Source of the DNA: Clostridiaceae bacterium
GTDB taxonomy: Bacteria; Bacillota; Clostridia; DSM-8532
Assembly: GCA_012521615.1 (NCBI GenBank)
Contig: JAAYMA010000036.1
Span: 1-50,240, forward strand
DNA length: 50,240 bases
Reading direction: 5' to 3'
The position numbers and the translations under genes were made by a program. Under the pieces are notes generated by a model. That model searched no databases, was not told the DNA's origin, and worked only from the letters and a program-made list of their open reading frames with translations. Positions 3,246 to 43,200 of the stretch are shown one piece after another; the first letter of the stretch is position 1, and each line of letters opens with the position of its first letter.

Positions 3246-4505
3246 TTATTGCCAGTATTCTTCAATTAATTCCCTGATAATTTTTACCGCTTTACGAGGT
3301 CTCTCAAGGTCTCCTTTCAATGAGTAAACATCTCTCTGGGATATTTCAAGGTTACATCCCCTGGCTGCTTTTAGAGTTTTGATGATGTGCTGCCGCCAGC
3401 CTTCCTCATCAAACACTTCATCCACACCAATAAAGTTTGGTGAAGGTTTACGATGATAAATCACTTTGGTACCCCTGAGTTTTTCTCCCATTAACTCTTC
3501 ATTACACCAGGGCGAAATAGAAACTTTCCGCAGATTTTCGCATTTGCTAAGGCAATTGTCCCATATTGGATCAACCGGTTCGCAGCATCCATAGGAAAAA
3601 AGTCCGAACAAGTCAGATACTCTCTTGTAGTAAGGGAAAATAAACTCCTCATACATTGCAGGTGATATACCGACTGTTTCCTGGGAATCCATAAACCCCC
3701 ACAAATCCTTTGTTGTAAGTTTTCCACCCGCTGGTACCTCTTGTGGAAGTTCATGAGTGAAACAGAATGAACCCTGACCAAGCATTTCATAGGATGCGGT
3801 CGGAAGCAGCAGACCTTCACTTTCAAGCCATTTGAAATATCCTATGTAATCATCAGATATCCGTTTCATGAAAGCATGGAATGTGTCGGGATAATCATAC
3901 ATGGCAAAGAGCATATTTTCCATACCCATCAAATGGATTACCTCCTGTGTAGGAACGGCACCCAAACAGTTATTGGTGATTTTTACAGGCAAGATATCAC
4001 CAAATATGTTTTCCAAAAATTCCTTCCATGCAAGCGTCTTTTCTTTGTCTGCACCATATTCAGTCGGGCCGAGTTTTGGAAAATCCTCTTCAAGGTCATT
4101 TATTATATACTTGAACCTGTGCCCCACATTCTGGCCTGTAGAATTTACAGCATGTTCCTTTTCGATTGTAACACCGAATAATTTGAAATAAGTGTCCCAT
4201 TGAATTGGTAAATATGGTGGTACAATTCTGTCGTCATCAATCTTTTCATAATTGGTAAAATTGCGGTAGAGCTCCAGTTCAATTGCACGACCGGTCTCAG
4301 TCTCATATTTGAACTCCGGAAGAATGTCATGCTCGAATGTCCATATTTCCACATGTATCATCGGTCTTACGCTGTTGCCTTCGTTATGCTTATACCAAAG
4401 CTGTTTACGTTCCTCCATTATTGGCAGCTGTGAATATTCAAGCTGCTTTTTTGCCAGCTCACGCAGACATTTACGTTCTTCAGGAGTAACATAAAAATTA
4501 TACAT
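3246..4505 (-). CDS. Uroporphyrinogen decarboxylase (URO-D) family protein
   Basis: A 419-residue protein of the URO-D/MtaA superfamily. Members that sit outside haem loci are usually corrinoid- or zinc-dependent methyltransferase-like proteins rather than true HemE. A typical motif, YGCCEPVD, lies near residue 310 where this superfamily places a cysteine-rich metal or substrate site, and the chain is longer than HemE (about 350 residues). The start is supported by an AGGGGG ribosome binding site. It lies between a MATE exporter and a GH2 glycosidase on the same strand with no haem or corrinoid-protein gene nearby, so the context points to sugar or glycoside metabolism. A role in demethylating a methylated substrate is only an inference. 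It is soluble and presumably cytoplasmic. Confidence 0.82.
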   Translation of the reverse strand: MYNFYVTPEERKCLRELAKKQLEYSQLPIMEERKQLWYKHNEGNSVRPMIHVEIWTFEHDILPEFKYETETGRAIELELYRNFTNYEKIDDDRIVPPYLPIQWDTYFKLFGVTIEKEHAVNSTGQNVGHRFKYIINDLEEDFPKLGPTEYGADKEKTLAWKEFLENIFGDILPVKITNNCLGAVPTQEVIHLMGMENMLFAMYDYPDTFHAFMKRISDDYIGYFKWLESEGLLLPTASYEMLGQGSFCFTHELPQEVPAGGKLTTKDLWGFMDSQETVGISPAMYEEFIFPYYKRVSDLFGLFSYGCCEPVDPIWDNCLSKCENLRKVSISPWCNEELMGEKLRGTKVIYHRKPSPNFIGVDEVFDEEGWRQHIIKTLKAARGCNLEISQRDVYSLKGDLERPRKAVKIIRELIEEYWQ

Positions 4506-7202: not shown

Positions 7203-8699
7203 TTAACGGAAACGCCAGATAACATCGTTTAGTCTTAGGTTGTTTTTAAAATCCAATAAGTTTGTGTCATCATTAATAAGCACAAACTCGATATTTGCCA
7301 TATCAGCCCAGTCCATCATATTTTCAGCAGTCAAATCATACGAAAACGACGTATGATGTGCTCCGCCTGCCAAAATCCATGCTTCGGCAGCCTCATGAAG
7401 TGACGGCTGCGGCTTCCAAAGCACACGTGCCACAGGCAGCTTAGACATATCTTTTTCTATGGTCACTGCTTCAACAGCATTAACAAGCAGACGGAAGCGA
7501 TCTCCCATATCAATTAACGACGCTGCTATAGCCTTTCCGGACTTTCCGTTGAACACCATCCGTGCAGGATCGGATTTTCCTCCAATACCGAGTGGATGTA
7601 CCTCAATTCTCGGACGGGATGCGGCAACAGTAGGACATACCTCCAGCATATGCGCACCAAGTATCATGCTGTTACCTGGCTCAAAGTGATATGTATAATC
7701 TTCCATAAATGAAGTGCCTCCATCTAAGCCTGCAGACATCAACTTCATAATTCTGACCAGACCGGCAGTTTTCCAGTCCCCTTCCGCGCCAAAACCATAT
7801 CCTGCTTCCATTAATCTTTGAACGGCGAGACCGGGCAATTGTTTTAAACCATATAGATTTTCAAAAGTGGTTGTAAACGCTCCAAATCCACCATCCGCCA
7901 GGAAAGTCTTAAATGCAATTTCCAATTTGGCCTGATATCTGATAGCATCTCTTATTGGTCCCTCTGTCAGTCCTTCAGGAACTATATCATACTTTTCTTC
8001 ATATTCTTTCAGGAGTTTATTTGCACTCTCATCAGTAACTTCATCGAGCACTTTGACAAGGTCACCAAGTCCATATCCATTTACAGACCAACCAAATTTT
8101 ATCTGAGCTTCTACCTTATCTCCTTCGGTCACTGCTACTTCCCTCATATTATCGCCGAAACGGGCGATCTTGAGATTTTTGCCTTCAACACAGCCGACAG
8201 CAGCCCGCATCCAGCCGGCAATCCTGAGGGATACTTCCGGGTCTTCCCAATGACCTGCAATAACCTTGCGTGAAATCCTCATGCGTGCACCTATAAATCC
8301 ATACTCACGGTCACCATGAGCAGCCTGGTTCAGGTTCATAAAGTCCATATCAATACTGTCCCAGGGAATATCACGATTGAACTGGGTATGTAAATGCAAA
8401 AGAGGTTTTTGAAGCATTGAAAGACCTGTTATCCACATTTTTGCCGGTGAAAATGTATGCATCCAGGTTATGATGCCGCTGCATTCAGGATCAGCATTTG
8501 CCTCCTCAATGACTTTTCTTATTTCATCAGGAGTTGTCACAACTGCCTTGAAAACAACTTTACAGGGAATAGCAACATTGCTGTTAAGTGAATTTGCAAT
8601 TGTTTTAGCGTTTTTTTCCACCTGTCTGACAGCTTCAGTTCCGTAAAGATGCTGGCTTCCGGTAATAAACCAGAATACGTATTTTTTAAGATCCGACAT
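7203..8699 (-). CDS. araA: L-arabinose isomerase
   Basis: A 498-residue L-arabinose isomerase (the E. coli enzyme has 500) converting L-arabinose to L-ribulose in the cytoplasm, Mn2+-dependent. The family start ([12 protein letters not shown]) and the metal/catalytic residues are present: the Glu of [12 protein letters not shown], the Glu of [13 protein letters not shown], the His of [11 protein letters not shown] and the His pair of [14 protein letters not shown]. An AGGAGG ribosome binding site precedes the ATG. It is the last gene of the six-gene run, 53 bp after araD, so arabinose released from arabinogalactan can be used directly. Nothing looks truncated. Confidence 0.98.
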
Positions 8700-8752: not shown

Positions 8753-9442
8753 TCATTTCTGACCATAATAAGCTCCGGGTCCGTGTTTCCTCAAAAAATG
8801 CTTATTCAGTAAATTCTGTGGCATAGTTCCCAAACCCGGTTTTAAGAGAAGACTGTAAATCGCCATCATCGCAAGTTGTTCCAGTACAACTGAATTATGT
8901 ACCGCTTCTTCCGGGGATTTGCCCCAGGTAAACGGAGCATGATTTTTTACAAGAACAGCAGGAATATCATTTGGGTTCAAATCTTTGAAGGTTTCAATTA
9001 TTACAGCTCCGGTATTAGTTTCATAATCGGACCGGATTTCTTCTTCTGTCATGTCTCTTGTACAGGGTATTTCTCCATAGAAATAATCGGCGTGTGTCGT
9101 TCCATAGACAGGTATGGCCATACCGGCCTGTGCCCATGCTGTAGCATAAGGTGAATGGGTGTGGCATATTCCCCCGATATCAGGAAATGCATTGTATAAT
9201 GCCACATGTGTAGGTGTATCTGAGGAGGGGTTGAGCCTGCCTTCCAGAACTTTTCCGGATAAATCCAGCAACACAATGTCCTCCTCCCGCAGAGACTCAT
9301 ATTCAACTCCACTGGGCTTTATGGCTATAATTCCTTTCTCCCGGTCTATTCCACTGACATTGCCCCAGGTATAGATCACCAAATCTCTTTTGGGAAGTTC
9401 CAGGTTTGCCTTGAGCACAGCACGCTTTAAATCCCCTGACAT
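8753..9442 (-). CDS. araD: L-ribulose-5-phosphate 4-epimerase
   Basis: A 229-residue class II aldolase/epimerase, converting L-ribulose 5-phosphate to D-xylulose 5-phosphate, the entry to the pentose phosphate pathway. Zinc ligands are visible in HTHSPYATAWAQ and in the later KNHAPFTWG motif, and the TTHADYFYG segment is typical of AraD. The length equals that of the E. coli enzyme (231). The start has an AAGGAGG ribosome binding site. It lies 29 bp after the kinase gene and 53 bp before araA, so the three arabinose genes are in pathway order kinase-epimerase-isomerase and almost certainly co-transcribed. Confidence 0.97.
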   Translation of the reverse strand: MSGDLKRAVLKANLELPKRDLVIYTWGNVSGIDREKGIIAIKPSGVEYESLREEDIVLLDLSGKVLEGRLNPSSDTPTHVALYNAFPDIGGICHTHSPYATAWAQAGMAIPVYGTTHADYFYGEIPCTRDMTEEEIRSDYETNTGAVIIETFKDLNPNDIPAVLVKNHAPFTWGKSPEEAVHNSVVLEQLAMMAIYSLLLKPGLGTMPQNLLNKHFLRKHGPGAYYGQK

Positions 9443-9471: not shown

Positions 9472-11079
9472 TTATTTAAAATTGTCAACCGCTGATCTCT
9501 CTATGACCAAGCCTTTTATGTACCGGTCCATAAATACGTCAAAGTCAGCAACATCATCAGAAACAGGCTGGACAGTTATTTTCCGGTTAACCTTAAACAC
9601 ATTGCTGTTAAGGAAATATTCCAATGTTTCTTTTTCAGATTTGTTTGCCATATATGAAGCAAGAATAGCAATTCCCCATGCCCCTCCTTCACCTGCTGTC
9701 TCCATAACACTTACAGGTACTCGTGTCGCTGCTGCCATTATTCTTTGTCCTGCCTCCCTGGTTTTGAAAAAACCGCCATGTCCTAATATTTCATCCACTT
9801 TTACCGACTCTTTCTCAAAAAGAATATTAAGTCCAATACGCAGAGCAGCTAACGAGGCGAATAAATGTGTCCTGAAAAAGTTAGCAAGGTTAAAATTGCT
9901 GTCCGGTTTCCGGATAAACATGGGACGACCCTCTTCAAAATTGGTAATATGCTCACCTGATATGTAGCCGTAAGATAACAGACCTCCGCAGTCCCGGTCA
10001 CCTTCCAGCGCCTTGCTCAGAAATGTATCATAGAGCTTTGCTTTGCTTACCTCAAATCCCAAAGCCTTTACTGCTTCACCGAACAAGCCTATCCATGCAT
10101 CATAATCTGAAGTGCAGTTATTGGAATGCACCATTGCCACCAGTTTTCCTGTGGGAGTAGTAACCAGATCAATTTCGGGATATGCTCCTGATAATTCCTT
10201 GTCAAGCACAATCATGGCAAAAACCGATGTACCCGCCGATACATTTCCGGTACGCTCCGCAATGCAATTTGTAGCTACCATACCGGTCCCCGCATCACCT
10301 TCGGGCGGGCACATGAAAATTCCTGGCTCAAGACGACCAGTTACATCCAAAAGCCGTACTCCTTCTGTAGTGAGTTCTCCTGCTTTTTCACCGGCTTCAA
10401 GAACTTCAGGCAGGATATCTTCCAGATTCCAGGGAATATTTTTATCACGAAGTATTTCATTGAATTGTTTCAGCATTTTTTTATTATAATTTTTATTATT
10501 TATATCTATAGGAAATACACCCGACGCATCATTAATGCCAAGGACTTTTTTACCTGTCAGTTTCCAATGTACATAGCCTGCCAAAGTAGTCATAAAGCTG
10601 ATTTCGGAGATATGCTCTTCATTTTTGAGAATGGCCTGATATAGATGTGCTATACTCCATCTTTGGGGTATGGGATAATTGAACAGTTCAGTCAGCTTCC
10701 CCGACGCCTCACCGGTAATGTTATTGCGCCATGTCCGGAATGGTGTCAGCAGTTTCCCATTTTTGTCGAAGACCATGTATCCATGCATCATGGCACTTAC
10801 GCCTATGGCTTTTGTGGTTTTAAGAACTACCCCGTATTCTTTTTCCACAGCATCGGCCATGTTCTTATAACTGTCCTGTACCCCTTTCCAAATATCCTCC
10901 AGGCTGTAGGTCCAGATTCCGTCAATATTCTCGTTTTCCCATTCATGGCTGCCCGAAGCTAATATTTCATGTTCGGGACCCACCAGAACTGTTTTAATTC
11001 GGGTTGACCCCAGTTCAATACCGATAGTTGTGTTGCCGTTAAGAATAGAATTTCTGACTGTATTAAGCTTGGTACACAC
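9472..11079 (-). CDS. FGGY-family carbohydrate kinase, probable ribulokinase
   Basis: A 535-residue FGGY kinase, expected to phosphorylate L-ribulose with ATP because it sits directly before araD and araA. The N-terminal ATP-binding signature [13 protein letters not shown] and the second-domain segment [20 protein letters not shown] are clear. This longer type differs from E. coli AraB and is the form common in Clostridia, where members are often labelled only FGGY kinase. I chose the GTG at 11079 because it lies just after a GGGGAGAGGGGA purine tract and begins close to the conserved domain. An in-frame extension to 11154 exists but adds a non-conserved tail. Xylulokinase is the main alternative, and context argues against it. 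Confidence 0.9.
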
Positions 11080-11246
11080 TCCCCTCTCCCCTCTGCTCAA
11101 GTTTTTCCTTGCACGATCTCTTATGATTGATTCAGGAACTATTATTTCATGCACGGATTTTCTGGATAATCATTATCCTTGCATCTCTGATCTCAGTATG
11201 AAACGCGGTGAAATTATAGTGTGAGCTTTCTTGAAATGAACACACC

Positions 11247-12749
11247 TTATGGCATGGGTTTATTTTTTATCGATGGCATGTTGGGGGCATGCATCCTGAA
11301 TACGTCCAAGGACCATAAGGCATGTCCATTGAAGTCAAACAATGTCTGATCATCCCATTCGCTGCCTTCGCCATACTTCCAGCCTGCCCCTTCGACAGGT
11401 ATAAAAGCAGGTTCCCAGTAGAAAAAGCCTAATCCCTTTCCATTGGGAATTTTTTTCACAACAGAAGCGACAGCCTGAAGATTATTTGCCTGCCCCTGAA
11501 TGGTCGGAGGATACTCCGGAAGCAGTCTGGTGTAGGGTGTTGAAGTGGAATTAGGAGTGTCGTCCCCGTTTTCTTCAGTGTACGGATAGGCGGTTTCAAC
11601 AATTAATATGTCTTTATCATAGCGCTTGGCAAGGTCAAAGACATTATGACTGAAAACTGAGACAGGCCCATGCCAGATAGAATAATATGAAAGACCGATT
11701 ACATCAAATTCAACATTACGTTTTGTAAGATTATCAAAGAAGTAAACGCTTGCGGCATTGTCACCGCTGCGCTCTATATGGATAACTGTTCTTATGGAAC
11801 TTTTAACATCCTTTACAGCGCGCATACCACTTTTCAGCAGAATGCAAAACTTATCCCACTGACTGTCTGTATTAAACTCATCTGATATCTTTGCCACATC
11901 CCAAAGCATTCCGTTGCTAATCTCATTGCCAACCTGAACCATATCGGGAGTGGTGCCCTGATCTGCAAGTGATTTCACCACATCATAAGTAAAATCATAC
12001 AGTGCTTTTTCCAGTTCAGGAAAATCCAGACCCTCCCAGTCTTTGGGCATAGTCTGCTTTCCGGGGTCTGCCCACCAGTCGCTGTAATGAAAATCCAGCA
12101 GCAGTTTAAATCCCATCTCTTTAACGCGTCTGGCCATTTCCATCACATGAGCCTTATCGTTATAACCTGCCGGATCACTTAATGGAAGTCCGGGTTTGTT
12201 CCACAGTTTTAGGCGGATGTAATTAACACCGTGATCCTTTAAAATCTGAAGACAATCCTGTTCCCTGCCCTGTCTGTCATAAAATTTCCCGCCAAAATCC
12301 TCAATTTGCAGAAGATGGGATACATCCGCCCCGCAAATAAATTCAGCAGGCTGACCCTGAAAAATAGTTACATTGCTGATACCGCTTTGCTGTCCTTGAG
12401 GCAAGCCATCAACGAGAGTTATTCTGACATATCTGGCTCTGGAGTTGATGATGTGCCTGATATTATTGTCCTCGATGGCATATTCCAGAATATCGGATGC
12501 ATTAATCCAGTTCCTGTCATCAAACGACAGCTCCAGCTTATAACGGACTTTGTCTGCTCTGACCCATGTAACCAAAATCTCATTGATATATATTTCACTG
12601 CCTAAATCGATCTTCCACCAATGTCCCGGTGCATTGTCGGCGGGAGTCCAGTATGTATCAGGCCTCCCGTCAATGACGTTGTCAGGCATATGGCCAGGAT
12701 ACGATGAATCAGAACTTGTTGTTTTACCTATTGCAACATTATTATTCAT
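11247..12749 (-). CDS. Arabinogalactan endo-beta-1,4-galactanase (GH53) with N-terminal F5/8 type C domain
   Basis: A 500-residue enzyme with two domains. Residues about 5-140 form an F5/8 type C (discoidin-like) carbohydrate-binding module (NVAIGKTTSSD, then VIDGRPDTYWTP). From about 148 the GH53 barrel begins with CGADVSHLLQIEDFGGKFYD. The acid/base is the Glu of VQVGNEISNGM (near 276) and the nucleophile the Glu of LIVETAYPYT (near 384). It cuts beta-1,4-galactan. I chose the ATG at 12749 because AAGGTG lies six bases upstream; an upstream TTG start overlapping the previous gene is possible. Unlike most GH53 enzymes, no signal peptide or hydrophobic N-terminus is present, so it looks cytoplasmic and would act on imported galacto-oligosaccharides. 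Confidence 0.93.
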   Translation of the reverse strand: MNNNVAIGKTTSSDSSYPGHMPDNVIDGRPDTYWTPADNAPGHWWKIDLGSEIYINEILVTWVRADKVRYKLELSFDDRNWINASDILEYAIEDNNIRHIINSRARYVRITLVDGLPQGQQSGISNVTIFQGQPAEFICGADVSHLLQIEDFGGKFYDRQGREQDCLQILKDHGVNYIRLKLWNKPGLPLSDPAGYNDKAHVMEMARRVKEMGFKLLLDFHYSDWWADPGKQTMPKDWEGLDFPELEKALYDFTYDVVKSLADQGTTPDMVQVGNEISNGMLWDVAKISDEFNTDSQWDKFCILLKSGMRAVKDVKSSIRTVIHIERSGDNAASVYFFDNLTKRNVEFDVIGLSYYSIWHGPVSVFSHNVFDLAKRYDKDILIVETAYPYTEENGDDTPNSTSTPYTRLLPEYPPTIQGQANNLQAVASVVKKIPNGKGLGFFYWEPAFIPVEGAGWKYGEGSEWDDQTLFDFNGHALWSLDVFRMHAPNMPSIKNKPMP

Positions 12750-12772
12750 ACAGTCACCTTTTTCATGAATAG

Positions 12773-12985
12773 TCAATCAAAATCAGTTATTCTTTCCATC
12801 ATTGCCTTATACCTGAATTTGGCCATTTCATTGAGTTTCAACACTTCTTCCTCAGTGCCTGTAAATGGACATCTGAGACAGTAGTATTCCTTTTTTTCCT
12901 TGTCGTAGAACATATCAATGTCCAATTCTCTGATAAAGCAGGCAGGACATCTGTAGTTTAATCTACCTTTTCCAGCTTGAGGCAT
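12773..12985 (-). CDS. Small Cys4 (zinc-ribbon-like) protein of unknown function
   Basis: A 70-residue soluble protein with two CxxC pairs, YRCPACF near residue 12 and YYCLRCPF near residue 35. That is the spacing of a zinc ribbon. The remaining C-terminal third is charged and probably helical. A GGAG ribosome binding site eight bases before its ATG and a 28-bp overlap with the end of the 611-residue gene suggest translational coupling to it. Its own stop is only 24 bp before the GH53 start. I do not recognise the family. The tight linkage suggests a partner or accessory of the preceding enzyme, but this is inference. Possible roles are metal delivery or nucleic-acid binding. Confidence 0.72.
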   Translation of the reverse strand: MPQAGKGRLNYRCPACFIRELDIDMFYDKEKKEYYCLRCPFTGTEEEVLKLNEMAKFRYKAMMERITDFD

Positions 12986-14793
12986 GTAATCATCTCCTCG
13001 TTATTTGATAGTTCAGTGTTCAGACCAAGGGTAAACATGGGTGAAAATGCGTAACCCTCCCTGAAATAACCTTCGAATGTTCCTTTTACAGGATATACTG
13101 TCATCTTAGTTTTAACCTGGGGTACCACTGCTTCAACAGCAGCCGCGTCCTTGACAGATTCCTCACGGCATTTATATGCATACACTATTTCTTTTTCCTC
13201 TTCTTTGCCCCTGCATCTTAAAACAATGCCATTCATGTCTTCAGGGTATTCAGTGGTGCCATAGCATGCCGTAATATATTCATTTATATGTACCTTGGCA
13301 TCCGGATTGCTCATATCTGTGATTATCCTTGAAATTTTAATCTCACTTGAACCTTCGCTGAATATAAACCTGGTGGTCACTTTGAAGGTAAGATCACTGA
13401 ATTCAATATCAACAGGATCCAAAGTCAATATTCTGTCATTTCCTTCTTCGGAGAATTTGGCTTTGGTACGGCAAAGACAAAGATCAGCCTCTTCTCCCTT
13501 ATAACTTACCTTACAGCTCTTTATACTGCCTTCTCCTGCATAGTGAGTGAAATAGCCGGCTCTGTACATGGATTGTACAAGGAATGGATATGATGCATCA
13601 TGAACATTTCCGGTTCCTATGCCCACAGGAATCTCCAGCTTGGCTGCATATGGTCTCAGATCCACAATGGCACCGCCCTGATTCATGTCCACGCAGGTAC
13701 GGTAATATGGATCGCAATACCAGAACAGCTGTTTTTCTGAACCATACAGGATATCCTTCCACAGAGCACATTCAGGCTGGGTGTAGGTTTTATTGGCTCT
13801 GTACCAGTCAGCAAATTCTGCCATGGTCATATCGACAAGTTCACCTTTATCCCTGAGTTCAGCATAATATGCCATACAGTCTCTGTAACTCTGAACAAGA
13901 AGTTCATAAGGTGCTTCCCAGCGACCGGCCTTGTTCATCCAGCCCGGTCCGACAAACATCATATTGTAGGCATAGCCCCGATTGTATTTCGCAAGATGTC
14001 TGTACTGATCAATAAGATTGTAAAGATAAGGATATTTTCCGTCCTTGTAAATCATTCCCCTCAGCACATTCTGCGGATGTGTACCGAAATTGGAACCATT
14101 ACCGTCAAAACATGCAAGAAGATCACGGGAAAGATGAGGTATTGCAACAATACCGCTGTCTTCCTCTTCGTTTGTTGCAGGAGCATGTGAATTGGCTTTT
14201 GATGGAATCCATGGATTCCAGGGACCTCCATCCATGAATGTATACCATGAATTGTTGCATGTTCTGTAGGCCTTCGGTCCTTCCTCCCAACAGGTTGCCA
14301 CTGCACATTTAACTGATGGATATTCTTGCTTGATAAAATTAATCAGTTCGGCATCCATATAGTAGGAACCTGTTGATTGGGGATAAAATCCGAAAATGTC
14401 GTGGAATTTTTCGAATACGTCCCTGACAATGGCTTTCTTGTCCTCCATTGAGAACATCCAGATACAAAAATCCTTTGTCTTGTACTTTTCTCTGAACTCT
14501 TTGCAGGGAAGCCCCAGAAGTGTAAGAGATATTTCGTCGCCGTATTTTTCATGATGTTCCTTGGCAAGACTGATAGCTTCATCATTGAAAAGACTTGAAT
14601 AAGTCATCTGAATTGTGGTTTTTAACCCGTGCTGGTGTGCGATTTCCTGCTGCAGCTTGAAAATGTCAAGAGATTCAGTCAAAAGTTCTTTTCTTCCGAT
14701 GTCTTCTTTTTTGCCCTGGCCCGTTACTTTCTCGGCATACTCCGGAACCATTTCAGGCCGGTGAAGAATGTTCAGAATAAATGTATCCTTCAT
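12958..14793 (-). CDS. Uncharacterised large protein, possible carbohydrate-active enzyme
   Basis: A 611-residue soluble protein I do not recognise with confidence. The N-terminal half (about 1-330) begins FILNILHRPEMVPEY and alternates helix and strand in the manner of GH57/GH38 or polysaccharide-deacetylase barrels, with conserved-looking acidic and aromatic patches (YYMDAELI, ATCWEEGP, FMDGGPWNPW, FVGPGWMN). The C-terminal part (about 380-611) is beta-rich and resembles a mutarotase-like sandwich. DUF3863/DUF3864 is one family to compare. The ATG at 14793 has an AAAGGAGG ribosome binding site, so the 14-codon upstream extension is unlikely. It opens the galactan/arabinose run and is divergent from an AraC regulator, which implies a role in arabinogalactan use. 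The function is not known. Confidence 0.8.
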   Translation of the reverse strand: MKDTFILNILHRPEMVPEYAEKVTGQGKKEDIGRKELLTESLDIFKLQQEIAHQHGLKTTIQMTYSSLFNDEAISLAKEHHEKYGDEISLTLLGLPCKEFREKYKTKDFCIWMFSMEDKKAIVRDVFEKFHDIFGFYPQSTGSYYMDAELINFIKQEYPSVKCAVATCWEEGPKAYRTCNNSWYTFMDGGPWNPWIPSKANSHAPATNEEEDSGIVAIPHLSRDLLACFDGNGSNFGTHPQNVLRGMIYKDGKYPYLYNLIDQYRHLAKYNRGYAYNMMFVGPGWMNKAGRWEAPYELLVQSYRDCMAYYAELRDKGELVDMTMAEFADWYRANKTYTQPECALWKDILYGSEKQLFWYCDPYYRTCVDMNQGGAIVDLRPYAAKLEIPVGIGTGNVHDASYPFLVQSMYRAGYFTHYAGEGSIKSCKVSYKGEEADLCLCRTKAKFSEEGNDRILTLDPVDIEFSDLTFKVTTRFIFSEGSSEIKISRIITDMSNPDAKVHINEYITACYGTTEYPEDMNGIVLRCRGKEEEKEIVYAYKCREESVKDAAAVEAVVPQVKTKMTVYPVKGTFEGYFREGYAFSPMFTLGLNTELSNNEEMITCLKLEKVD

Positions 14794-14941
14794 CTTATCC
14801 TCCTTTGACAGTGTTTTATTTTCAGAATCAATCAATCTGATGTGTGGTCTGTACAGTGATGTTATTTAATCATTTTAAACAATATCGACTTTTCTCTGAT
14901 CAATAATTTGAAACTCCTGATAATTACATTATACATATCTC

Positions 14942-15002: not shown

Positions 15003-15836
15003 ATGAACAATTATCTCTTTCCGGTAATAACCTACGAAAACACCCTGCCATTTTATGTCAAAGGAGTAGGAGGTCTGGAGAATCAGGAACACATTATACG
15101 CCCCAATGGTTATCATGACTTTCAATGGCTTCATTGTGTAAAAGGAAAGGGAAAACTCATTATTAACAATAAGGAATTTTTTATTCCAAGAAATTCAGGT
15201 TTTTTCATGTACCCTGGTGTTCCCCATCAGTATTTTGCAGTGGAAGAACCATGGGAAACCCATTGGGTTGTGTTTGGTGGTTATGGAGTTGTGCCTCTGC
15301 TAAATGCACTGGGTTTTTCACAATACAATGTATTCAGGTTAAATGATATAAGGCCTTTGGACAATCTCATCAATGATATTTATATCCTGTCTCAGTCTAA
15401 AAATCTGCTTTCCGGTTATCGTTGCTCCGCCAAACTTTATAATCTTCTGATTGAATTGAAAGTCCAGACACAAGAAAGTCTGGATACGGCAAATGTATCC
15501 AGGTATAACAAACTGCGTCCCGTACTTGATTATATAGATAACAACTATATGAATAACCCCACGATGGATGAGCTTGCATCGCTCATCAATGTCTCCCCTC
15601 AATATTTTTGCAGAATTTTCAATAACGTACTTGGGATACGTCCGTTTACCTATCTGAATCTGATAAAGCTGCGGAATGCCAAAGAACTCCTTATCAAACA
15701 TCCTGAAATGCAGATAAAAGAAGTAGCCAGTAAGGTTGGCTACAACGACGTAAGCTACTTTTGTGCGGTATTTAAAAAACATGAGGGCGTTACTCCCATG
15801 GAATTCAAAATTAACTCTGCATTCCATATTACTTGA
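15003..15836 (+). CDS. AraC family transcriptional regulator (module 2)
   Basis: A 277-residue AraC-type regulator. Residues about 25-110 form a cupin domain (HDFQWLHCVKGKGKLIINN, then YPGVPHQYFAVEEPWETHW). Residues about 175-277 carry the double helix-turn-helix, including MDELASLINVSPQYFCRIF and IKEVASKVGYNDVSYFCAVF. It is divergent from the six-gene galactan/arabinose run and likely activates it in response to a sugar such as arabinose or a galacto-oligosaccharide; the effector is inferred. It converges with the downstream GH2 gene, separated by 55 bp with no clear terminator. Confidence 0.93.
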   Translation: MNNYLFPVITYENTLPFYVKGVGGLENQEHIIRPNGYHDFQWLHCVKGKGKLIINNKEFFIPRNSGFFMYPGVPHQYFAVEEPWETHWVVFGGYGVVPLLNALGFSQYNVFRLNDIRPLDNLINDIYILSQSKNLLSGYRCSAKLYNLLIELKVQTQESLDTANVSRYNKLRPVLDYIDNNYMNNPTMDELASLINVSPQYFCRIFNNVLGIRPFTYLNLIKLRNAKELLIKHPEMQIKEVASKVGYNDVSYFCAVFKKHEGVTPMEFKINSAFHIT

Positions 15837-15891: not shown

Positions 15892-18276
15892 CTATTCTGC
15901 CCTGAGGCTAACAACTGCTTCCTTCATACCTTCAGAAGAAAGCGTTACTCTTATGTCACCCTTACCTTCAGCCTTAATCATTGCCAAAAGTCTTCCGGCA
16001 AGCATTTTACGGGAAGGTGAGCTGTACAGCGCATGATCAAACAGATCTCCTGAATCCATTCCAACAAGGCGGGCAGGTCCTTCCACCTCACAGTGCACAA
16101 CCGGACCTGCATCAGGAACAAACAGCCCGCTTTGGTCTACAGCCATAATCTCTATATGGGAAACCCCGTCCACTCTGATTACCCCTCTGTCGGCTTCTGT
16201 CTTTAAAGCTACCGGCTTACCGGTTGTTGTGACTACAGTTTCAGCAACAATCTTCCTGTCTATATAGCCGACTGCTTTAAGTTCACCCGGTTCATAGGGA
16301 ACATCCCATACAAGATGCAGATCATGGGTTGTATAGTTCCGCCTCTTTCTGTCGTTCCAGACATGTCTGCTACCATAATTGGGACATTGATAACCCCTGG
16401 TCCCGACCAGACGACCGTTGATATAAAGCTCTACCTCTTCACAGTTGGTATAGGCCACGACCTGTTTGAACACCCCCTCATCTCCTTCCCAGTTCCAGTG
16501 TGGCATAAGATGTAGGGTTATTTCGTCCTGGTTCCAGATACTCTTGAAGTAATAATATGTATCTTTAGGAAAACCTGCGGTGTCTATCGGTCCGGTCAAT
16601 GCGCCCCGGCTGGGCCACATAGCCTCACCCAAATAATCTATGCCGGTCCACAGATAATCTCCAGCTACGAAATCACGGCTTACAGTGTACCGCCAGAGCC
16701 ACTCATGACTTAGGGTCGCAGCAATATAATTTCTTTCAGGACGATAATCTCCGCGGAATGAACTCCAGGCCGAAGGATTTTCTGATCCGCAGAAGCGGCG
16801 CTCCGGAAACAGATTCCTGTCTTCTTCATACAAAGTTTCAGCCCTTTCACGCCAGCGGGCGACATAATTATAGCCCACCACATCCAGTTCATTTTCAAAC
16901 TCACGATATGCCTCAGCAGTAGTGCCTGATGCGATATTATCACATCCGCAGGTGACCATGCGGCTCGGATCCTCACGGCGGCATATATTTCGAAGAAGTT
17001 TCAATATTTCAATGCCGCTTTTGGACGACTGCTCAGGTATTTCATTACCGATGCTCCAAAGAATGACCGAAGGATGATTGCGATCGCGGCGTACCATTGA
17101 GATTAAGTCTTTCTCCGCATCCTGACTGAAGAACTGGGAATAGCCATATGCAAATTCTTCAGTGTAATAATTTCGCAGTTTATGCTTAGTCAAAAGCCAT
17201 TCGTCAAAAGCTTCATCCATTACAAGAAAACCTAACTCGTCGCAGAGATCCAAAAATTCCGGCGAAGGCGGGTTATGGGCACAGCGGATACCGTTGCAAC
17301 CCATGTTCTTTAAAGCACGCAGTCTTCTTTCCCACGTCTCTTTATAGCCCACGGCGCCTGTCAGACCGCAGTCATGATGAAGACACATGCCTTTGATTTT
17401 TACAGGCTTGCCGTTTAGAAGAAAACCTTTGTCACAGTCAAATGTGGCAGTGCGGATTCCTATGCTTGTTGACAGGGTATCTACAGGCTTTCCGTCCACA
17501 ACAACAGTGCTTTCGAGAGTATACATATATGGATCGGAATCGGTCCAAAGACGAGGGCTTTGTATTGTGGGAGTTACCATTGCAATTCCTTTGCTTCCCG
17601 GTTTCAATGACAACGGAGCTCCCGAATAACTTACCTGTTTTCCCTCATGATCATAAATCCGATGTATGACCCCTGCATTAACAGGTACATCGCTCTCATT
17701 TACTACTTCGGCACGAATTTCGAGAAGAGCGCTGTCAAGATTCTCATGAAGCCGGCTGGTAAAGCAAAAAACACCCCACTGTTCAAAATGAACCTTTTCA
17801 TATATATCAAGCCAGACATTGCGGTAAATGCCCGAACCTGAATACCAGCGGGAATTAGGCTGCAAAGAATTGTTAACTCTGACAGCAATGACATTGTCAC
17901 CCTCTTGAAGGTGTTCGGTCATGTCAACTGAGAAAGAAGTATAGCCATACCCGCATCCTCCTATTAATTTACCGTTAAGATAAACAGAGGAATCCATATA
18001 AATACCGTCAAACATCAGTGATACTTGTTTATCTTTCATTTCTTCAGTATAGCTGAAATGTTTCCGATACCAGCCAATACCTGTCAGAACATAACCACCG
18101 CCCCTGCCGGATGGATGATTTTCGTCAACGGGGTGCTCAATGCTCCAGTCATGTGGAACATCAAGCCGGCGCCATTGTCGATCGTCCAGTTCCGGTTTAC
18201 TATATTCGGGATGATCTCCATGCAGAAACAGCCAGTCATAATTAAAACAAATGCGTTTTCGTAAATAATTTCCCAT
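15892..18276 (-). CDS. GH2 beta-galactosidase, short DUF4982-type
   Basis: A 794-residue GH2 enzyme. It begins with the family pattern FNYDWLFLHGD and VPHDWSIEHPV, followed by a jelly-roll sugar-binding domain, an Ig-like domain, and a TIM barrel with KGMCLHHDCG. The acid/base is the Glu of WSIGNEIPEQ near residue 410 and the nucleophile the Glu of FCGSENPS near 497. The C-terminus (HLMPHWNWEGDEG onward) matches the DUF4982 and Ig-like ending common in bacterial GH2 beta-galactosidases. The ATG at 18276 has a GGGGG ribosome binding site seven bases upstream; the 11-codon in-frame extension has none. No signal peptide is seen. It lies 48 bp after the GH35 gene and is probably co-transcribed with it. 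The substrate is probably beta-galactosides. Confidence 0.92.
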   Translation of the reverse strand: MGNYLRKRICFNYDWLFLHGDHPEYSKPELDDRQWRRLDVPHDWSIEHPVDENHPSGRGGGYVLTGIGWYRKHFSYTEEMKDKQVSLMFDGIYMDSSVYLNGKLIGGCGYGYTSFSVDMTEHLQEGDNVIAVRVNNSLQPNSRWYSGSGIYRNVWLDIYEKVHFEQWGVFCFTSRLHENLDSALLEIRAEVVNESDVPVNAGVIHRIYDHEGKQVSYSGAPLSLKPGSKGIAMVTPTIQSPRLWTDSDPYMYTLESTVVVDGKPVDTLSTSIGIRTATFDCDKGFLLNGKPVKIKGMCLHHDCGLTGAVGYKETWERRLRALKNMGCNGIRCAHNPPSPEFLDLCDELGFLVMDEAFDEWLLTKHKLRNYYTEEFAYGYSQFFSQDAEKDLISMVRRDRNHPSVILWSIGNEIPEQSSKSGIEILKLLRNICRREDPSRMVTCGCDNIASGTTAEAYREFENELDVVGYNYVARWRERAETLYEEDRNLFPERRFCGSENPSAWSSFRGDYRPERNYIAATLSHEWLWRYTVSRDFVAGDYLWTGIDYLGEAMWPSRGALTGPIDTAGFPKDTYYYFKSIWNQDEITLHLMPHWNWEGDEGVFKQVVAYTNCEEVELYINGRLVGTRGYQCPNYGSRHVWNDRKRRNYTTHDLHLVWDVPYEPGELKAVGYIDRKIVAETVVTTTGKPVALKTEADRGVIRVDGVSHIEIMAVDQSGLFVPDAGPVVHCEVEGPARLVGMDSGDLFDHALYSSPSRKMLAGRLLAMIKAEGKGDIRVTLSSEGMKEAVVSLRAE

Positions 18277-18324
18277 AATATACCCCCGTCCTAATAAATA
18301 ACAGTTCAAGTTTTTTCCGATTCC

Positions 18325-20673
18325 CTATCCTATAACAAGCTTATATTCAGGTACTGCTTCAACGGAATATATTTTAGCTGTTGAATCCTCTGTAAAGTCA
18401 TGTCTGAATTTGATGTCCTTATCAAAGAACACACTGCTGCCTTTGTTATAGGGAATGATGTGAAAATACATGCCTTTGACAAAAATTTCAGGGCAGAAGC
18501 GTTTAAGACCAATCTCCCAAATGTCACCATTGCAGAAATTGTCACTTATCAGCACACCGTCAGAAAAAGCATTACCGACATTTCCGAGATAATCCACCTG
18601 GAGGTACACCTCATTGATATTTTCAAAATCGAAAGGCTTGATGTTTACTGCGGCTTTGCCGGCAGCAACTTTATTAACCTGTATATCTATTCTCAGGTCA
18701 GGCATCGATTTGCAGAAACCGGTAAATAACCCCGCATTTTCTCCATTCATAAGACCCATGGATGATCCTAATTTATTCTGTGAATAAGGATATATATAAA
18801 GTTCAATATGTTTGTCTCTTGTTGTTGCCTCCAACATACCATTTCTAACTATGAGTCCCGCATTTGAAATAACTGCCCGCTCCTTACCCCAGAGGTTCAT
18901 TTTCCAGAAATTAAGGGACTGCTCACGGGTAAGTGTACACAGTTTTAGTTTCTGTCCGTTCTCAGCTGTAATAGCAATAATGGAATTCATTCCCGGACAT
19001 ACCTTTACAAATGTATATTCTTCTGTTTTTTTCATCTCTGCTTTCTCAAAAGTCAGTTGGTCAATCTCTTTATTTGAAAAGCAATACTCGCTTTCCATAC
19101 CATCAGGTGCAAAGAAGAAATAAGTTCTTTCGTTGTCACCGTCTATATATGTAATAAGTTGTGTGGTCGAATATTTGAGCTTTATACCGCATAAATCCAG
19201 ATTGAAAGGCAGTATGACAGAGTTGTTCTTTTTGAGTGTAAAACCTTTGGTAAGGTGAGAATCTATCCCGGGTATAGTTATGGTTTCGCCCGGAAGCTGC
19301 AATTCTATGCAAATATCTTTCTGATCAAGCATTTCAAAATGATCCTGATAGTTGATTATAAAGACAAAACCTGCCTCATCCTTCTGCCTGACAGCATAAC
19401 GTAAAGTTTTGTTATCCTCGGGCACCAAATCTTTAACTTCTTCGGGAAGAACCGTACCCATGGGACATAGCTGTTCCTGAAAATCAGTCAGGAAGTAAAA
19501 CAAAGGCTTCAGAAACCTGTAGGAATCCCTGAGCTGTCCGAACTGACCAATGGGCGCCTGAAACTCGTAAGATATTTTTGGCACGGTATGCTCGTTTAAA
19601 TAGCAGTGTTTTCCTATTGGATTGGATCCGTCATGGAACATATAATAACCTATGAAATTGCATCCCCCGGCTATTTGCACAATTGTAGCCGCTTCCACGC
19701 TTTCCGGCTCAACTTTGAACCTGTAGGCATATGAACAGACCATTCCGCCTCCAAGCTCACTGCTGACATATGGATACTTTTCGGGTTCATAAGGCGGATC
19801 AAACTCGGGATATCTTAAGTTGTTGCTATGAAAATTCCGGATAAGATACTGGGTTGTTGGCGGATGACTGCCGGGCTTCTGACCGCTGTACACGAACAGC
19901 CATGGCTGAAAAGCATATCCGCTGTATGTAGGCAGTGTCTCGTCTTCTATGAATGAGGCACCACCCCACGCTGTGCATGTATATATCGGAGCGTTCATGC
20001 CTGCTTCCTGTGCCATCTTTTTAAGAACTTTTATATGTTCATCCCCATCCCTGCCTGAGCCAACCCACTCAAATTCGTCGGTGATGAGAAATTCCCATGC
20101 AGGTGATGCATGCATATGCTCATTTTCAAGCTGTATACCAATTACGGGCCCGCCGTTCCCGTACATATATTCCCTTACCTGTTCTCCAATTTCTTCAAAC
20201 CAGCGTCTGACATAGAGCAAATAACCTTCATCATTGGATCTTACTGTAAATGGGCGTCCATACAACCAGTCAGGGAGCCCGCCGTTTCTGACTTCACCAT
20301 GATTAAAGGGTCCAATTCTGAGTATTACATACACTCCATGCTTTTCACAGAGGGAAACAAAGTATTTCAAATCCAAATTCCCATCCCATACAAACACACC
20401 TTGGTCTTCTTCGTGGTGTATCCAGAATATATAGGTAGAGATTATATTAATCCCTGCTGCCTTCATCTTAAGAAGTTCATCTTCCCAAAATTCTTTTGGA
20501 TACCTGGAAAAATGAAATTCACCTGATATTCCGAAAAACGGTTTTCTGTTCAGTTCAATAAAGTAATTTGTGAAATTTATATGATGACCTTTGGGATTTG
20601 AGCCGCCAAGTTTAAGGTGTCCCGAATAAATTCTCTTAGTCTCCTGGGTGATTTTAATTGTATGCTTGCCCAT
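18325..20673 (-). CDS. GH35 beta-galactosidase
   Basis: A 782-residue family 35 glycosidase that removes terminal beta-galactose. The barrel starts at FFGISGEFHFSRYPKEFW, followed by INIISTYIFWIHHE. The acid/base is the Glu of IGIQLENEH near residue 182 and the nucleophile the Glu of VSSELGGGM near 305. Beta-sandwich domains follow. A strong AGGGGGAAGCT ribosome binding site precedes the ATG. No signal peptide is present, so it likely acts in the cytoplasm. It follows the AraC regulator (101-bp gap) and precedes the GH2 gene (48-bp gap) on the same strand. With GH2 and LacZ it gives three different beta-galactosidase folds in one module, presumably for different linkages. Confidence 0.94.
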   Translation of the reverse strand: MGKHTIKITQETKRIYSGHLKLGGSNPKGHHINFTNYFIELNRKPFFGISGEFHFSRYPKEFWEDELLKMKAAGINIISTYIFWIHHEEDQGVFVWDGNLDLKYFVSLCEKHGVYVILRIGPFNHGEVRNGGLPDWLYGRPFTVRSNDEGYLLYVRRWFEEIGEQVREYMYGNGGPVIGIQLENEHMHASPAWEFLITDEFEWVGSGRDGDEHIKVLKKMAQEAGMNAPIYTCTAWGGASFIEDETLPTYSGYAFQPWLFVYSGQKPGSHPPTTQYLIRNFHSNNLRYPEFDPPYEPEKYPYVSSELGGGMVCSYAYRFKVEPESVEAATIVQIAGGCNFIGYYMFHDGSNPIGKHCYLNEHTVPKISYEFQAPIGQFGQLRDSYRFLKPLFYFLTDFQEQLCPMGTVLPEEVKDLVPEDNKTLRYAVRQKDEAGFVFIINYQDHFEMLDQKDICIELQLPGETITIPGIDSHLTKGFTLKKNNSVILPFNLDLCGIKLKYSTTQLITYIDGDNERTYFFFAPDGMESEYCFSNKEIDQLTFEKAEMKKTEEYTFVKVCPGMNSIIAITAENGQKLKLCTLTREQSLNFWKMNLWGKERAVISNAGLIVRNGMLEATTRDKHIELYIYPYSQNKLGSSMGLMNGENAGLFTGFCKSMPDLRIDIQVNKVAAGKAAVNIKPFDFENINEVYLQVDYLGNVGNAFSDGVLISDNFCNGDIWEIGLKRFCPEIFVKGMYFHIIPYNKGSSVFFDKDIKFRHDFTEDSTAKIYSVEAVPEYKLVIG

Positions 20674-38330: not shown

Positions 38331-38443
38331 CAAGATAAATGTTGTGATCATAGTCTGACGTTATTAATGAGCATAAAGCAGTCAAAACTGTGCTTAGTAT
38401 TACCCGATTTCAATCTTTTTTAGCTCAGTAAAGGAGAATGGGC

Positions 38444-40213
38444 ATGGATAAACTAAAAATGCATTCTTTAAACAAAGTAAATGAAAACATCAAAAAAATG
38501 GCTGAATTATTTCCAAATACTCTGACCGAAGTCATCAAAGGCTATCGTAAAGACGGAAAGCCTATCATCGGATATGCCATCGACTTCGACATACTTAGGC
38601 AGGAGCTGTCTGACATTATTGTAGAAGGCCCTGAGGAGCGTTACCAGTTTACATGGCCGGACAAAAAGAAGTCGATACTGCTCGCAAACGCTCCCATTGC
38701 CAAGACACTACGCCCCTGCCGTGAAGAAAGTGTAAATTTTGATACAACCGAGAACCTCTATATTGAAGGGGACAACCTGGAAGCACTTAAGCTTTTACAG
38801 GAAACTTATCTTGGAAAGGTTAAACTGATTTACATTGATCCCCCTTACAATACAGGCAATGATTTTGTATATGAGGATAATTTCATCCAAAGCTCAGATG
38901 AATATTTAGCCAACAGCGGACAATTTGATGAAGAAGGAAACCGCCTGGTACAGAATCTTGAGAGCAACGGCCGGTTCCACACAGACTGGCTTAACATGAT
39001 GTATCCAAGGTTGAAGCTGGCTAAAGATCTACTGGCAGAAGATGGTGCAATCTTTGTCAGTATAGACTTTAATGAAGTAGAAAATCTCAAAAAAATAATG
39101 GATGAAATATTTGGAAGAGAAAATTTCCAGCGTGAAATTATCTGGCGTATAGGTTGGCTTTCCGGTTATAAAACCACCGCCCCAAACTTTATCCGGAATC
39201 ATGACACAATCCTGTTTTATTCGAAAAATCACACCAAGCTTAATTTTATAAAGAAATATATTGAAAATAAGGATTTTAAGCCACTCGTGAAAAAAGAACC
39301 CAAATTGGTCAGCAAACTGAAAGAATTGGGCTTGACCACTGAACAGCAAAACGACCTGATTAATTTTATAAACCATGAAAACCGTCCTGACCACTACCCC
39401 ATTGAAGATACATGGAATTGTAACGAATATGATGATCTTAACAGCATTGCCATAGTATCATTTTCAGGTGAAAAAATTTCAAAAATATTAGGCATTGATC
39501 AGGATTTCAAGGGGCAAAAGTCAATCAAAATGTTAAAGCGTATACTGGAAGCCATAACTACAGGCGATGACATTGTTTTGGACTTTTTCAGCGGCACTGC
39601 CTCTACCGCCCATGCAGTCATGCAGCTTAACGCCGAAGACGGCGGAAACCGCAGGTTTATCATGATACAGCTTCCTGAACCCTGCGACGAAGATTCCGGA
39701 GCCTATAAAGCCGGATACAAAACAATTTCAGATATCGGAAAAGAGAGAATCCGCCGGGCAGGGAAAAAGATACTGGAAGATTATGGGGAGTCGGCAGAAC
39801 GGTTAGATATCGGTTTCCGGGTCCTCAAGGTAGATACCAGCAATATGGAGGATGTCTACTACAAACCTGAAGAATATACGCAGAAACTGCTTTTCTCTCT
39901 GACAGACAATATCAAGCCTGACCGAACTCCTCAGGATTTACTTTTTCAGGTCATGCTGGATTTGGGCGTGCTGCTTTCCAGCAAAATTGAAGAAATAATC
40001 ATTGGCGGCAAAAAGGTGTTTAATGTAGCTGACGGATACCTGATAGCCTGCTTTGATAATGACGTGACAGATGAAGTCGTCAAAGAAATTGCCAAAATGC
40101 AGCCCTATTACGCTGTTTTCCGTGACAGTGGCATGGCCAGTGACAGCGTTGCGGCTAATTTCGAGCAAATTTTTGAAGCCTACAGCCCGTCAACTATCAG
40201 GAAGGTTCTGTAA
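38444..40213 (+). CDS. mod: Type III restriction-modification DNA methyltransferase (Mod)
   Basis: A 589-residue adenine-N6 methyltransferase of the beta class. The catalytic motif IDPPYNTGNDF lies near residue 132. The SAM-binding motif VLDFFSGTASTAHAV follows near 381, the order expected for Type III Mod. The stretch between (about 225-365) is the probable target recognition domain. The ATG at 38444 has GGAG seven bases upstream; the ATG six bases earlier is too close to it. The stop is 14 bp before res. No simple-sequence repeat that would allow phase variation is seen. It methylates one strand of the recognition site and also guides Res. The recognition sequence cannot be predicted here. 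Confidence 0.96.
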   Translation: MDKLKMHSLNKVNENIKKMAELFPNTLTEVIKGYRKDGKPIIGYAIDFDILRQELSDIIVEGPEERYQFTWPDKKKSILLANAPIAKTLRPCREESVNFDTTENLYIEGDNLEALKLLQETYLGKVKLIYIDPPYNTGNDFVYEDNFIQSSDEYLANSGQFDEEGNRLVQNLESNGRFHTDWLNMMYPRLKLAKDLLAEDGAIFVSIDFNEVENLKKIMDEIFGRENFQREIIWRIGWLSGYKTTAPNFIRNHDTILFYSKNHTKLNFIKKYIENKDFKPLVKKEPKLVSKLKELGLTTEQQNDLINFINHENRPDHYPIEDTWNCNEYDDLNSIAIVSFSGEKISKILGIDQDFKGQKSIKMLKRILEAITTGDDIVLDFFSGTASTAHAVMQLNAEDGGNRRFIMIQLPEPCDEDSGAYKAGYKTISDIGKERIRRAGKKILEDYGESAERLDIGFRVLKVDTSNMEDVYYKPEEYTQKLLFSLTDNIKPDRTPQDLLFQVMLDLGVLLSSKIEEIIIGGKKVFNVADGYLIACFDNDVTDEVVKEIAKMQPYYAVFRDSGMASDSVAANFEQIFEAYSPSTIRKVL

Positions 40214-40227
40214 AAGGAGGTACCGAA

Positions 40228-43200
40228 GTGAAGTTTCAGTTTAAGATACAGCAATACCAGACCGATGCCGTCAATAGTGTAGTCGATGTTTTTACCGGAC
40301 AACCCTTTTCTGATAGTGTAAGTTATGAACGTGATCTGGGTATTACCCGAAAAAACCAGTATACTCAAATTTCCATGTTCACTGATGCCGATGTTCAGGA
40401 CGATGCAACCGGCTATAAAAATGCGCCCCTTGCACTTCCACCGGATCAGCTTCTTCAAAACATCCGAAATATTCAGACACGAAACAATATTAAGCTGTCT
40501 GAATCTTTGGTTGATCACTTGGGTGCATGTAGCCTGGATGTGGAAATGGAGACAGGTACAGGCAAAACCTATGTATATATAAAGACTATTTTCGAACTGA
40601 ATAAACGGTATGGCTGGAGTAAATTCATTGTTGTGGTTCCATCCATTGCCATCCGCGAAGGGGTATATAAGACTTTTCAGATTACCCAGGATCACTTCAT
40701 GGAACATTATAAGAAAAAAGCCCGCTTTTTTATCTACAACAGCAGGAATTTGTCCGAGCTGGACAATTTCAGTGCCGGCAGCGGGATAAATGTAATGATT
40801 ATCAATATCCAGGCCTTTAATACCTCTTTAAAAAAAGGCGGCCGCAGCAAAGAAGCGCGCCGCATTTACGAAAAGCTTGACGAATTCGGAAGCAGAAGGC
40901 CTATTGATGTCATCAAGGCTACCCGCCCCATACTGATTTTGGACGAACCGCAGAAAATGGGCGGAGACAAGACTCAAAAAGCGCTGACTAATTTTAATCC
41001 CCTGTTCTGCCTGAACTATTCGGCCACTCATGTACAGCATCATAACCTTGTCTATGTGCTTGATGCAGTTGATGCCTACAATAAACGCCTTGTCAAGAAA
41101 ATTGAAGTCAAAGGTTTTGAAATCAAGAACCTTAGAGGTACAGACAGATATTTATATCTTGAAAATATCATTATATCTCCCGATAAGCCGCCCATGGCAA
41201 AAATTGAACTGGAAATAAAATACCAGAAAGCCATCAAGAGAGTAAGCCGTATTCTTGGCACAGGCGACAATCTTTATAATGTATCCAACCAAATGGAACA
41301 GTATAAGGGGTATGTTATAAAGGAAATTGATCCAATCAGTGTCAGTGTATCCTTTACCAACGGTGTTGTATTGTCCCGCGGAGAAATTGTCGGTGATATT
41401 TCTGAAAAAGACATCCGCCGGATTCAGATTCGGGAGACCATTGTTTCTCATTTTGAAAAGGAAAAACATCTTTTTGAACTGGGAATCAAGACCCTTTCCC
41501 TGTTCTTTATAGACGAGGTTGCCAGGTACCGCAAATATAATGAAGCTGGCGAAGAAATAAACTCGGAATACGGAGAAATTTTCGAGCAGGAGTATATCAG
41601 TGTACTGAACGAATATATTACTTCTGAAGATACTCCTTATACCCGCTATTTAAAAAGCATTGATCCATCTAAAACACACTCCGGATATTTCAGCATTGAC
41701 AGACATGGTCGCAAAGTAGACAGCCCCACAAAACGGGGAAGCGATGAAAGTGATGATATCTCTGCCTATGACCTGATTCTCAGAGATAAAGAACGACTTT
41801 TAAGTTTCGATGAACCGGTACGCTTTATTTTCTCCCACTCTGCGCTGAGAGAAGGCTGGGACAATCCAAATGTTTTCCAGATATGCACTCTGAAACACGG
41901 TGGTTCAAGCCCTGCACAAAAGCGTCAGGAGGTTGGAAGGGGTCTGCGTTTGTGTGTAAACCAAAGAGGGGAACGTATGGATGAGGAAAGGTGCGGCGAA
42001 TCCGTTCACTCCATCAACCTATTGACAGTCATAGCCAGTGAAGGATACAGGGATTTTGTTGCAGATTTACAAACCGGCATTAAAGAAGCCTTGTATGAAA
42101 GACCAACAAAAGCAACAGTGGAATACTTTGCAGGAAAGACAATTCTGGCAGGAGACCAAATGCATGTGGTCAGTCAGCAGGAGGCCAAAGAAATATACCA
42201 TTACCTTGTGAGAAATTATTATATTGATACAAATGACGCTATTACCGAAAACTATCGGTCAGACATGGAAAACAATAGTTTGGCTCCACTTCCTCAAGTT
42301 CTGGCTAACCTTGAGGAAGGTGTGCATACCCTCATTCAGAGCGTATTTGACGAAAGCGTTCTGAACAGAATGATAGAAAACGGTAACAGGACTAAAATTA
42401 CCGAAAACCCTCTTAATGAAAACTTTTATAAAAAAGAATTCCAGACTCTCTGGAATTATATCAACCATCAGTATGCATACACTGTTGAATTTGACAGCAA
42501 AGAGCTGATTGAAAAAGCCATTAAGCATATAAACGAAAACATGTTTGTTTCCCAGCTGCAATATACGGTTACTTCCGGCAGGCAATCAGCTAACCTGGAC
42601 GGAAAGGATATTGCCCATGGCAACAGTTTTGTGCGGGAAAGGAGCCGGACTGAGACCCTGAAGCTTGCTGCTGCAAGCCAGATAGAATATGATCTGATAG
42701 GCAAAATTGCCGAAGGTACCACACTTACCCGGCGGACAGTAACAGCCATACTGACTGGCATTGAAAAGTCCGTATTTGAATGTTTTAAGCAAAATCCCGA
42801 AGAATTTATTTCCAAGGCAATACGTTTAATAAACGAACAGAAAGCTACTATGATTGTAGAGCATATTACTTACGACCAGATAGAAAAACGGTATGACAGC
42901 AGTATATTCACCGCCCAGGGTGCGTCAGGTGATTTAACAAAAGCTTTCCGCTCAAGGAAAAATATTCAGGATTATGTGTTTACAGATGGAATAGCTGAAA
43001 AAAGCGTAGAACGCTGTTTTGCAGAAGACATGGACAATGCCGATGAAGTTTGTGTCTATGCCAAGCTGCCGAAAGGCTTTACCATTCCTACACCAGTTGG
43101 CAACTACTCACCGGACTGGGCAATTGCATTTTATGAAGGAACTGTAAAACACATCTACTTCATAGCAGAGACAAAAGGAACAATGGAAAGCCTGAACCTG

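Follow-up and report, generated by a model that had tools for sequence, protein, structure and literature searches.

A conserved pair of overlapping genes in galactan-type loci, encoding a predicted barrel and beta-sandwich protein and a zinc-ribbon-like partner, as a candidate two-subunit carbohydrate-active enzyme

In the DNA stretch analysed here (the window, 50,240 nucleotides of contig JAAYMA010000036.1 from a Clostridiaceae bacterium), a gene for a 611-residue protein (BIG) overlaps a gene for a 70-residue Cys4 protein (SMALL), and the same pair recurs in hundreds of Clostridia from the gut and the environment, mostly in galactan-type loci. We give even chances to the reading that BIG and SMALL, as its two subunits, form a single intracellular carbohydrate-active enzyme, which would act on imported galactosides. 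The sequence family with its obligate zinc-ribbon partner is what we rate as new, the GH57/GH38-like fold being already known. The larger claim, that of a new glycoside hydrolase family with a catalytic subunit completed by a separate zinc-ribbon subunit, an obligate two-gene enzyme across gut Lachnospiraceae, is put forward tentatively and with some doubt.

The overlapping genes and the small partner

The first-pass annotation had described a 28-bp overlap of genes for a 611- and a 70-residue (CxxC/CxxC) protein, with GH53 and arabinose genes downstream, and the reading frames and Pfam agree with this (Table 1). The ATG at 14793 is taken as the BIG start in preference to the TTG at 14835, because of the sequence AAAGGAGG at 14799-14806; the GH53 gene probably starts with the ATG at 12749. 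Over approximately 80 genomes BIG is conserved at 73-83% and SMALL at 64-80%, with the four Cys invariant, so that both frames are beyond chance. Promoter and terminator scans stayed at chance level.

Table 1. Positions of the gene pair, its signals, conserved codons and neighbouring genes in the window
Feature	Position	Strand	Remarks
BIG, 611 aa	12958..14793	-	open frame from ATG; no signal peptide
SMALL, 70-aa Cys4 zinc-ribbon-like protein	12773..12985	-	open frame; CPAC...CLRC
BIG/SMALL overlap, 28 bp	12958..12985	-	SMALL in -1 frame of BIG
BIG ribosome-binding sequence AAAGGAGG	14799..14806	-	sequence
SMALL ribosome-binding sequence GAGGAG	12994..12999	-	inside BIG coding sequence
Asp147 codon, after barrel strand 4	14353..14355	-	17/18 in superfamily alignment; candidate nucleophile
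Glu170-Glu171 codons, C-x-E-E-G motif after strand 5	14281..14286	-	invariant in BIG relatives
His220-Leu-Ser-Arg-Asp224 codons, after strand 6	14122..14136	-	Asp224 invariant in whole superfamily
GH53 endo-beta-1,4-galactanase, N-terminal F5/8 type C domain	11247..12776	-	Pfam E 2.7e-123; no signal peptide
FGGY kinase	9472-11154	-	downstream of GH53
Class II aldolase	8753-9442	-	downstream, same strand as BIG
L-arabinose isomerase	7203-8699	-	downstream, same strand as BIG
AraC-type regulator, divergent from BIG	15003..15836	+	upstream side
GH2, beta-galactosidase-type family	15892-18309	-	beyond AraC-type gene
GH35, beta-galactosidase-type family	18325-20673	-	beyond GH2

A scan of genome contigs found BIG relatives at no fewer than 573 loci, and the set compared here consists of the best 80 of these at least 573 BIG-encoding stretches, mostly from Lachnospiraceae with some from Clostridium. 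SMALL follows BIG with an overlap of exactly 28 bp in 79 of 79 loci (L006-L085); in the 80th (L053) the contig ends 4 bases past BIG, and this is the only checked locus without SMALL after BIG. A Shine-Dalgarno-like motif stands ahead of SMALL in 80 of 80 loci. Relatives of BIG with 35% identity still have SMALL, with four invariant Cys, the same relative frame and overlaps of 19-67 bp, the value of 67 bp depending on the ATG chosen for SMALL. Since SMALL invariably uses the -1 frame, and 66 of the 80 overlaps contain AAAAG or an A-run, a programmed -1 frameshift producing a BIG-SMALL fusion was weighed as well; it was rejected, because SMALL has its own ATG and Shine-Dalgarno sequence in the close loci, which makes coupled re-initiation the simpler explanation.

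Whether the small protein always accompanies the large one had been raised by the first-pass annotation, for which absence of co-occurrence in other genomes would have counted against the proposal; the outcome is strict co-occurrence. In 150 Lachnospiraceae genomes SMALL and full BIG are found in the same 20, and SMALL in none of the 130 others. Class-wide (391 genomes), full-length BIG is present at 17 loci in 16 genomes, down to approximately 35% identity, and the 17 SMALL matches with E <1e-17 fall in the same 16 genomes, at all 17 loci, including both paralogues of one genome; the remaining class-wide SMALL matches (E 1e-5 to 1e-3) are probably unrelated ribbons. Seven further genomes of the class have remote BIG matches alone, and no BIG was found in the remaining genomes of the phylum sample. 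Beside the remote group of BIG relatives (A3), SMALL was not found. Within the genus of the window (G000-G013) BIG occurs in 4 of 14 genomes, and such a patchy presence, though BIG is 73-83% identical across families, suggests gain and loss. One genome carries a broken BIG with four in-frame stops (G775:C43:322-962; L102, L113), and SMALL was not found in that genome.

SMALL has two invariant CxxC knuckles approximately 20 residues apart, as expected of a zinc ribbon, and all checked copies keep the CPxC...CxxC pattern, the most divergent having 26% identity. Its closest ribbons are TFIIE-alpha (E 0.011), TFIIB and DnaG primase, all weak; the initial suggestion of a metal-binding accessory is supported as far as a resemblance to generic zinc ribbons goes. 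The model of SMALL has a long C-terminal helix (45-65) of modest confidence, which is conserved, and Foldseek with this model gave nothing below E 2.

Given these closest ribbons, one could think of the pair as a non-catalytic sugar sensor or regulator, in which BIG binds an oligosaccharide and the ribbon acts on transcription or translation; this seems improbable, since LacI or AraC regulators are already present in the loci, and the conserved acids after several barrel strands and the tight spacing to glycoside hydrolase genes suit an enzyme better. It is rather unlikely, too, that SMALL is an assembly factor or metal chaperone released after folding, with BIG alone as the enzyme. The small size, the Cys4 ribbon, the Shine-Dalgarno sequence inside BIG and the one-to-one presence would all agree with a chaperone; however, the long conserved helix of SMALL speaks at least as well for a stable interface, and any metal site in BIG would be hypothetical.

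Gene neighbourhoods

Clustering of the genes around BIG gave GH53, ABC permeases and a binding protein, LacI, GH42, GH2 and the Leloir genes (galKTE) as recurrent neighbours, where the cluster names, unless Pfam-scanned, come from sequence resemblance to scanned proteins and reading by eye. The galactan-locus setting proposed from the window alone extends to the relatives, as among the 59 loci that span 15 kb or more GH53 is found in 47, an ABC permease in 45, GH42 or GH2 in 32 and LacI in 31. The 150 Lachnospiraceae genomes comprise 20 with BIG, of which 16 have GH53, and 130 without it, of which 14 do (Fisher 3e-10); the 4 BIG genomes that lack GH53 count against the proposed reading. Judged by hydrophobicity and not by a trained predictor, 42 of 43 GH53 proteins adjoining BIG have no signal-peptide-like stretch, and therefore this GH53 is probably cytosolic, like BIG.

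The substrate suggested at first, arabinogalactan, turned out to be too narrow. Arabinose genes do not recur around BIG in the related loci, and nine loci without GH53, GH42 or GH2 hold melibiase-like proteins, GH20C, GH36 and a secreted GH42-like protein. One relative with 35% identity adjoins altronate dehydratase and tagaturonate reductase, genes of galacturonate use, and another adjoins GH31, GH78 and GH42 (the genes of both were identified by reading). The shared theme of BIG loci is galactose-containing glycans, not arabinogalactan alone.

Some further genes of these loci deserve mention. In three Clostridium loci (L010:6050-7972, L013 and L043), a 640-residue protein of no Pfam family is encoded directly upstream of BIG, possibly a further unnamed carbohydrate protein. 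Distant melibiase relatives of 584 residues lie next to or near BIG in loci without GH53 (L014:10019-11773, L125:2920-4674). The window itself has a 419-residue open frame with no Pfam match at 3246-4505 (-), with genes for a GH2 protein and a MatE transporter next to it, a Type III restriction-modification pair at 38438-43326 (+), consisting of an N6_N4 methylase and a ResIII/RE_endonuc protein, and a 466-residue protein with three DUF4183 domains at 43925-45325 (+).

Predicted fold and conserved residues of BIG

Sequence searches with BIG in Pfam, NCBIfam and PDB gave no match, and SMALL had none at the Pfam or NCBIfam cut-off, so the pair still has no named family, as was stated at first. 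The AF2 model of BIG (48 sequences, mean pLDDT 76, pTM 0.82) predicts a (beta/alpha) barrel at approximately 1-335 and a mutarotase-like beta-sandwich at approximately 340-611, the two halves that had been recognised by eye. As its best structural match, Foldseek ranks first the 4-alpha-glucanotransferase from Thermococcus litoralis, a GH57 enzyme (1k1x, E 8.5e-14), with an alignment that extends across both domains, and the GH57 trait of a (beta/alpha)7 barrel followed by a beta-sandwich is seen in the predicted model. Further matches are mutarotases, GH38 alpha-mannosidases (E ~1e-6) and polysaccharide deacetylases, and all of these are one fold superfamily. The global TM-scores to the best matches are approximately 0.3, and therefore the model supports a class of fold more than any one family.

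Unlike the fold, the sequence does not point to GH57 or GH38, since Pfam and hhalign gave no match to these or to any CAZy-linked family. PF03065 (GH57) does not match BIG, a single divergent relative misses the cut-off with E 0.084, and local hhalign against tiny sets of GH57 (two) and GH38 proteins gave no signal. BIG is 8% identical to 1k1x and is found in galactan, not alpha-glucan, loci. From GH38 it differs in size (approximately half to two thirds).

A link to DUF3863, which the first-pass annotation had proposed checking, exists as a distant, profile-level relationship of the barrel. PF12979 (DUF3863) does not match BIG, one member of the remote group reaches E 0.02, and a search of 60 relatives gave no match, but the controls were silent too. 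The remote group A3 is related to the BIG alignment (A2) in hhalign (99.7%, E 1.7e-26), and a profile of both barrels (A5) matches the DUF3863 structure 3lm3 with E 1.3e-6 over 200 positions; bridged by A3 in this way, the barrels have a common ancestry. The structure 3SGG (BT_2193) was rejected as a DUF3863 protein, as it belongs to the GxGYxYP family. Members of A3 have 500-840 residues, and some of them also carry Fn3-associated and F5/8 C domains; in two loci they have GH38- and GH20-like neighbours. Two remote relatives with Fn3_assoc and F5/8 C domains (L133:7071-9515, L137:7180-9696) adjoin such GH38-/GH20-like genes, and no Pfam family covers their barrel.

The residues Asp147, Glu170-Glu171, His220 and Asp224 would form a plausible acidic active site in the model. 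Position 170 is always acidic across the superfamily, the remote group included; a Ser takes the place of Asp147 in relative L127 and in 3lm3, which counts against the proposed reading, and His220 is likewise not kept in 3lm3. BIG resembles GH57 enzymes in the His that ends strand 1 and in having an acid that follows strand 4. Where GH57 has its catalytic Glu after strand 4, BIG has Asp147; right after strand 7, the place of the catalytic GH57 Asp, no invariant acid was seen (VGPGW) in this comparison made without superposition. The GH38 nucleophile is an Asp after strand 4, the place of Asp147; however, the GH38 zinc ligands H-x-D after strand 1 are absent from the BIG alignment, where His11-Arg-Pro is found.

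Given that deacetylases are among the Foldseek matches and are the targets covered best (3qbu, TMt 0.65), BIG could instead be a NodB-type carbohydrate deacetylase or esterase on acetylated pectin side-chain oligosaccharides. We find this very improbable, because strand 1 ends in N-I-[IL]-H-R and not in TFDD, HxxxH after strand 3 is absent as well from alignment A2 (both being NodB/CE4 motifs), Pfam NodB matches 0 of 18 members, and a beta-sandwich domain is atypical of NodB enzymes.

Conservation is among the highest, and model confidence among the lowest, in the loops that follow strands 5 and 6, and low-confidence loops, at 100 of 611 positions (16% of the length), contain 16 of the 54 invariant residues (p 0.008). 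This would fit an ordering of the loops by a partner or ligand, with the shallow alignment as the alternative. Taking together the acidic residues, the conserved loops and the ribbon-like SMALL, a two-subunit glycoside-active enzyme is therefore favoured.

Proposed function and meaning

To hypothesize, BIG may found a glycoside-hydrolase-like family that has not been described before, with GH57 and GH38 as its fold kin and DUF3863 as its distant sequence kin. The neighbouring ABC transporter would import galactan and related galactosides, and BIG would act on the imported oligosaccharides beside the cytosolic GH53 and GH42/GH2. Its putative active site would be located at the C-terminal face of the barrel, under the beta-sandwich, while SMALL, presumably a Cys4 zinc ribbon, would be made in a fixed ratio to BIG through translational coupling and may be needed as a structural subunit to fold or cap it.

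In Bacillus subtilis, the gan operon codes for an ABC importer together with GH42 and GH53. It has five genes (ganSPQAB) for plant galactan utilization (PMC5472308). None of the five is known to be a counterpart of BIG or SMALL. The operon also differs from the present loci in that the GH53 adjoining BIG has no signal peptide. In Roseburia hominis and R. faecis, an arabinogalactan gpPUL contains three GH53 genes, two of them with CBM61 and a signal peptide, and the passages on it that were available make no mention of BIG or SMALL and draw hypothetical genes as white boxes (PMC5320581). In our Roseburia hominis locus (L052), BIG and SMALL stand directly before GH53. In the main text of open-access papers, searched for the two genes, for DUF3863 and for loci of galactan use, no description of the pair came up.

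The galactan that forms side chains on pectin is common as a dietary fibre, and Lachnospiraceae belong to the main groups that ferment it in the gut. A protein such as BIG, in hundreds of galactan-type loci and unnamed by family libraries, would be a missing step in fibre use, one that CAZyme counts from known families would overlook. A glycoside-active enzyme that is never without its zinc-ribbon partner would, if true, be an unusual design.
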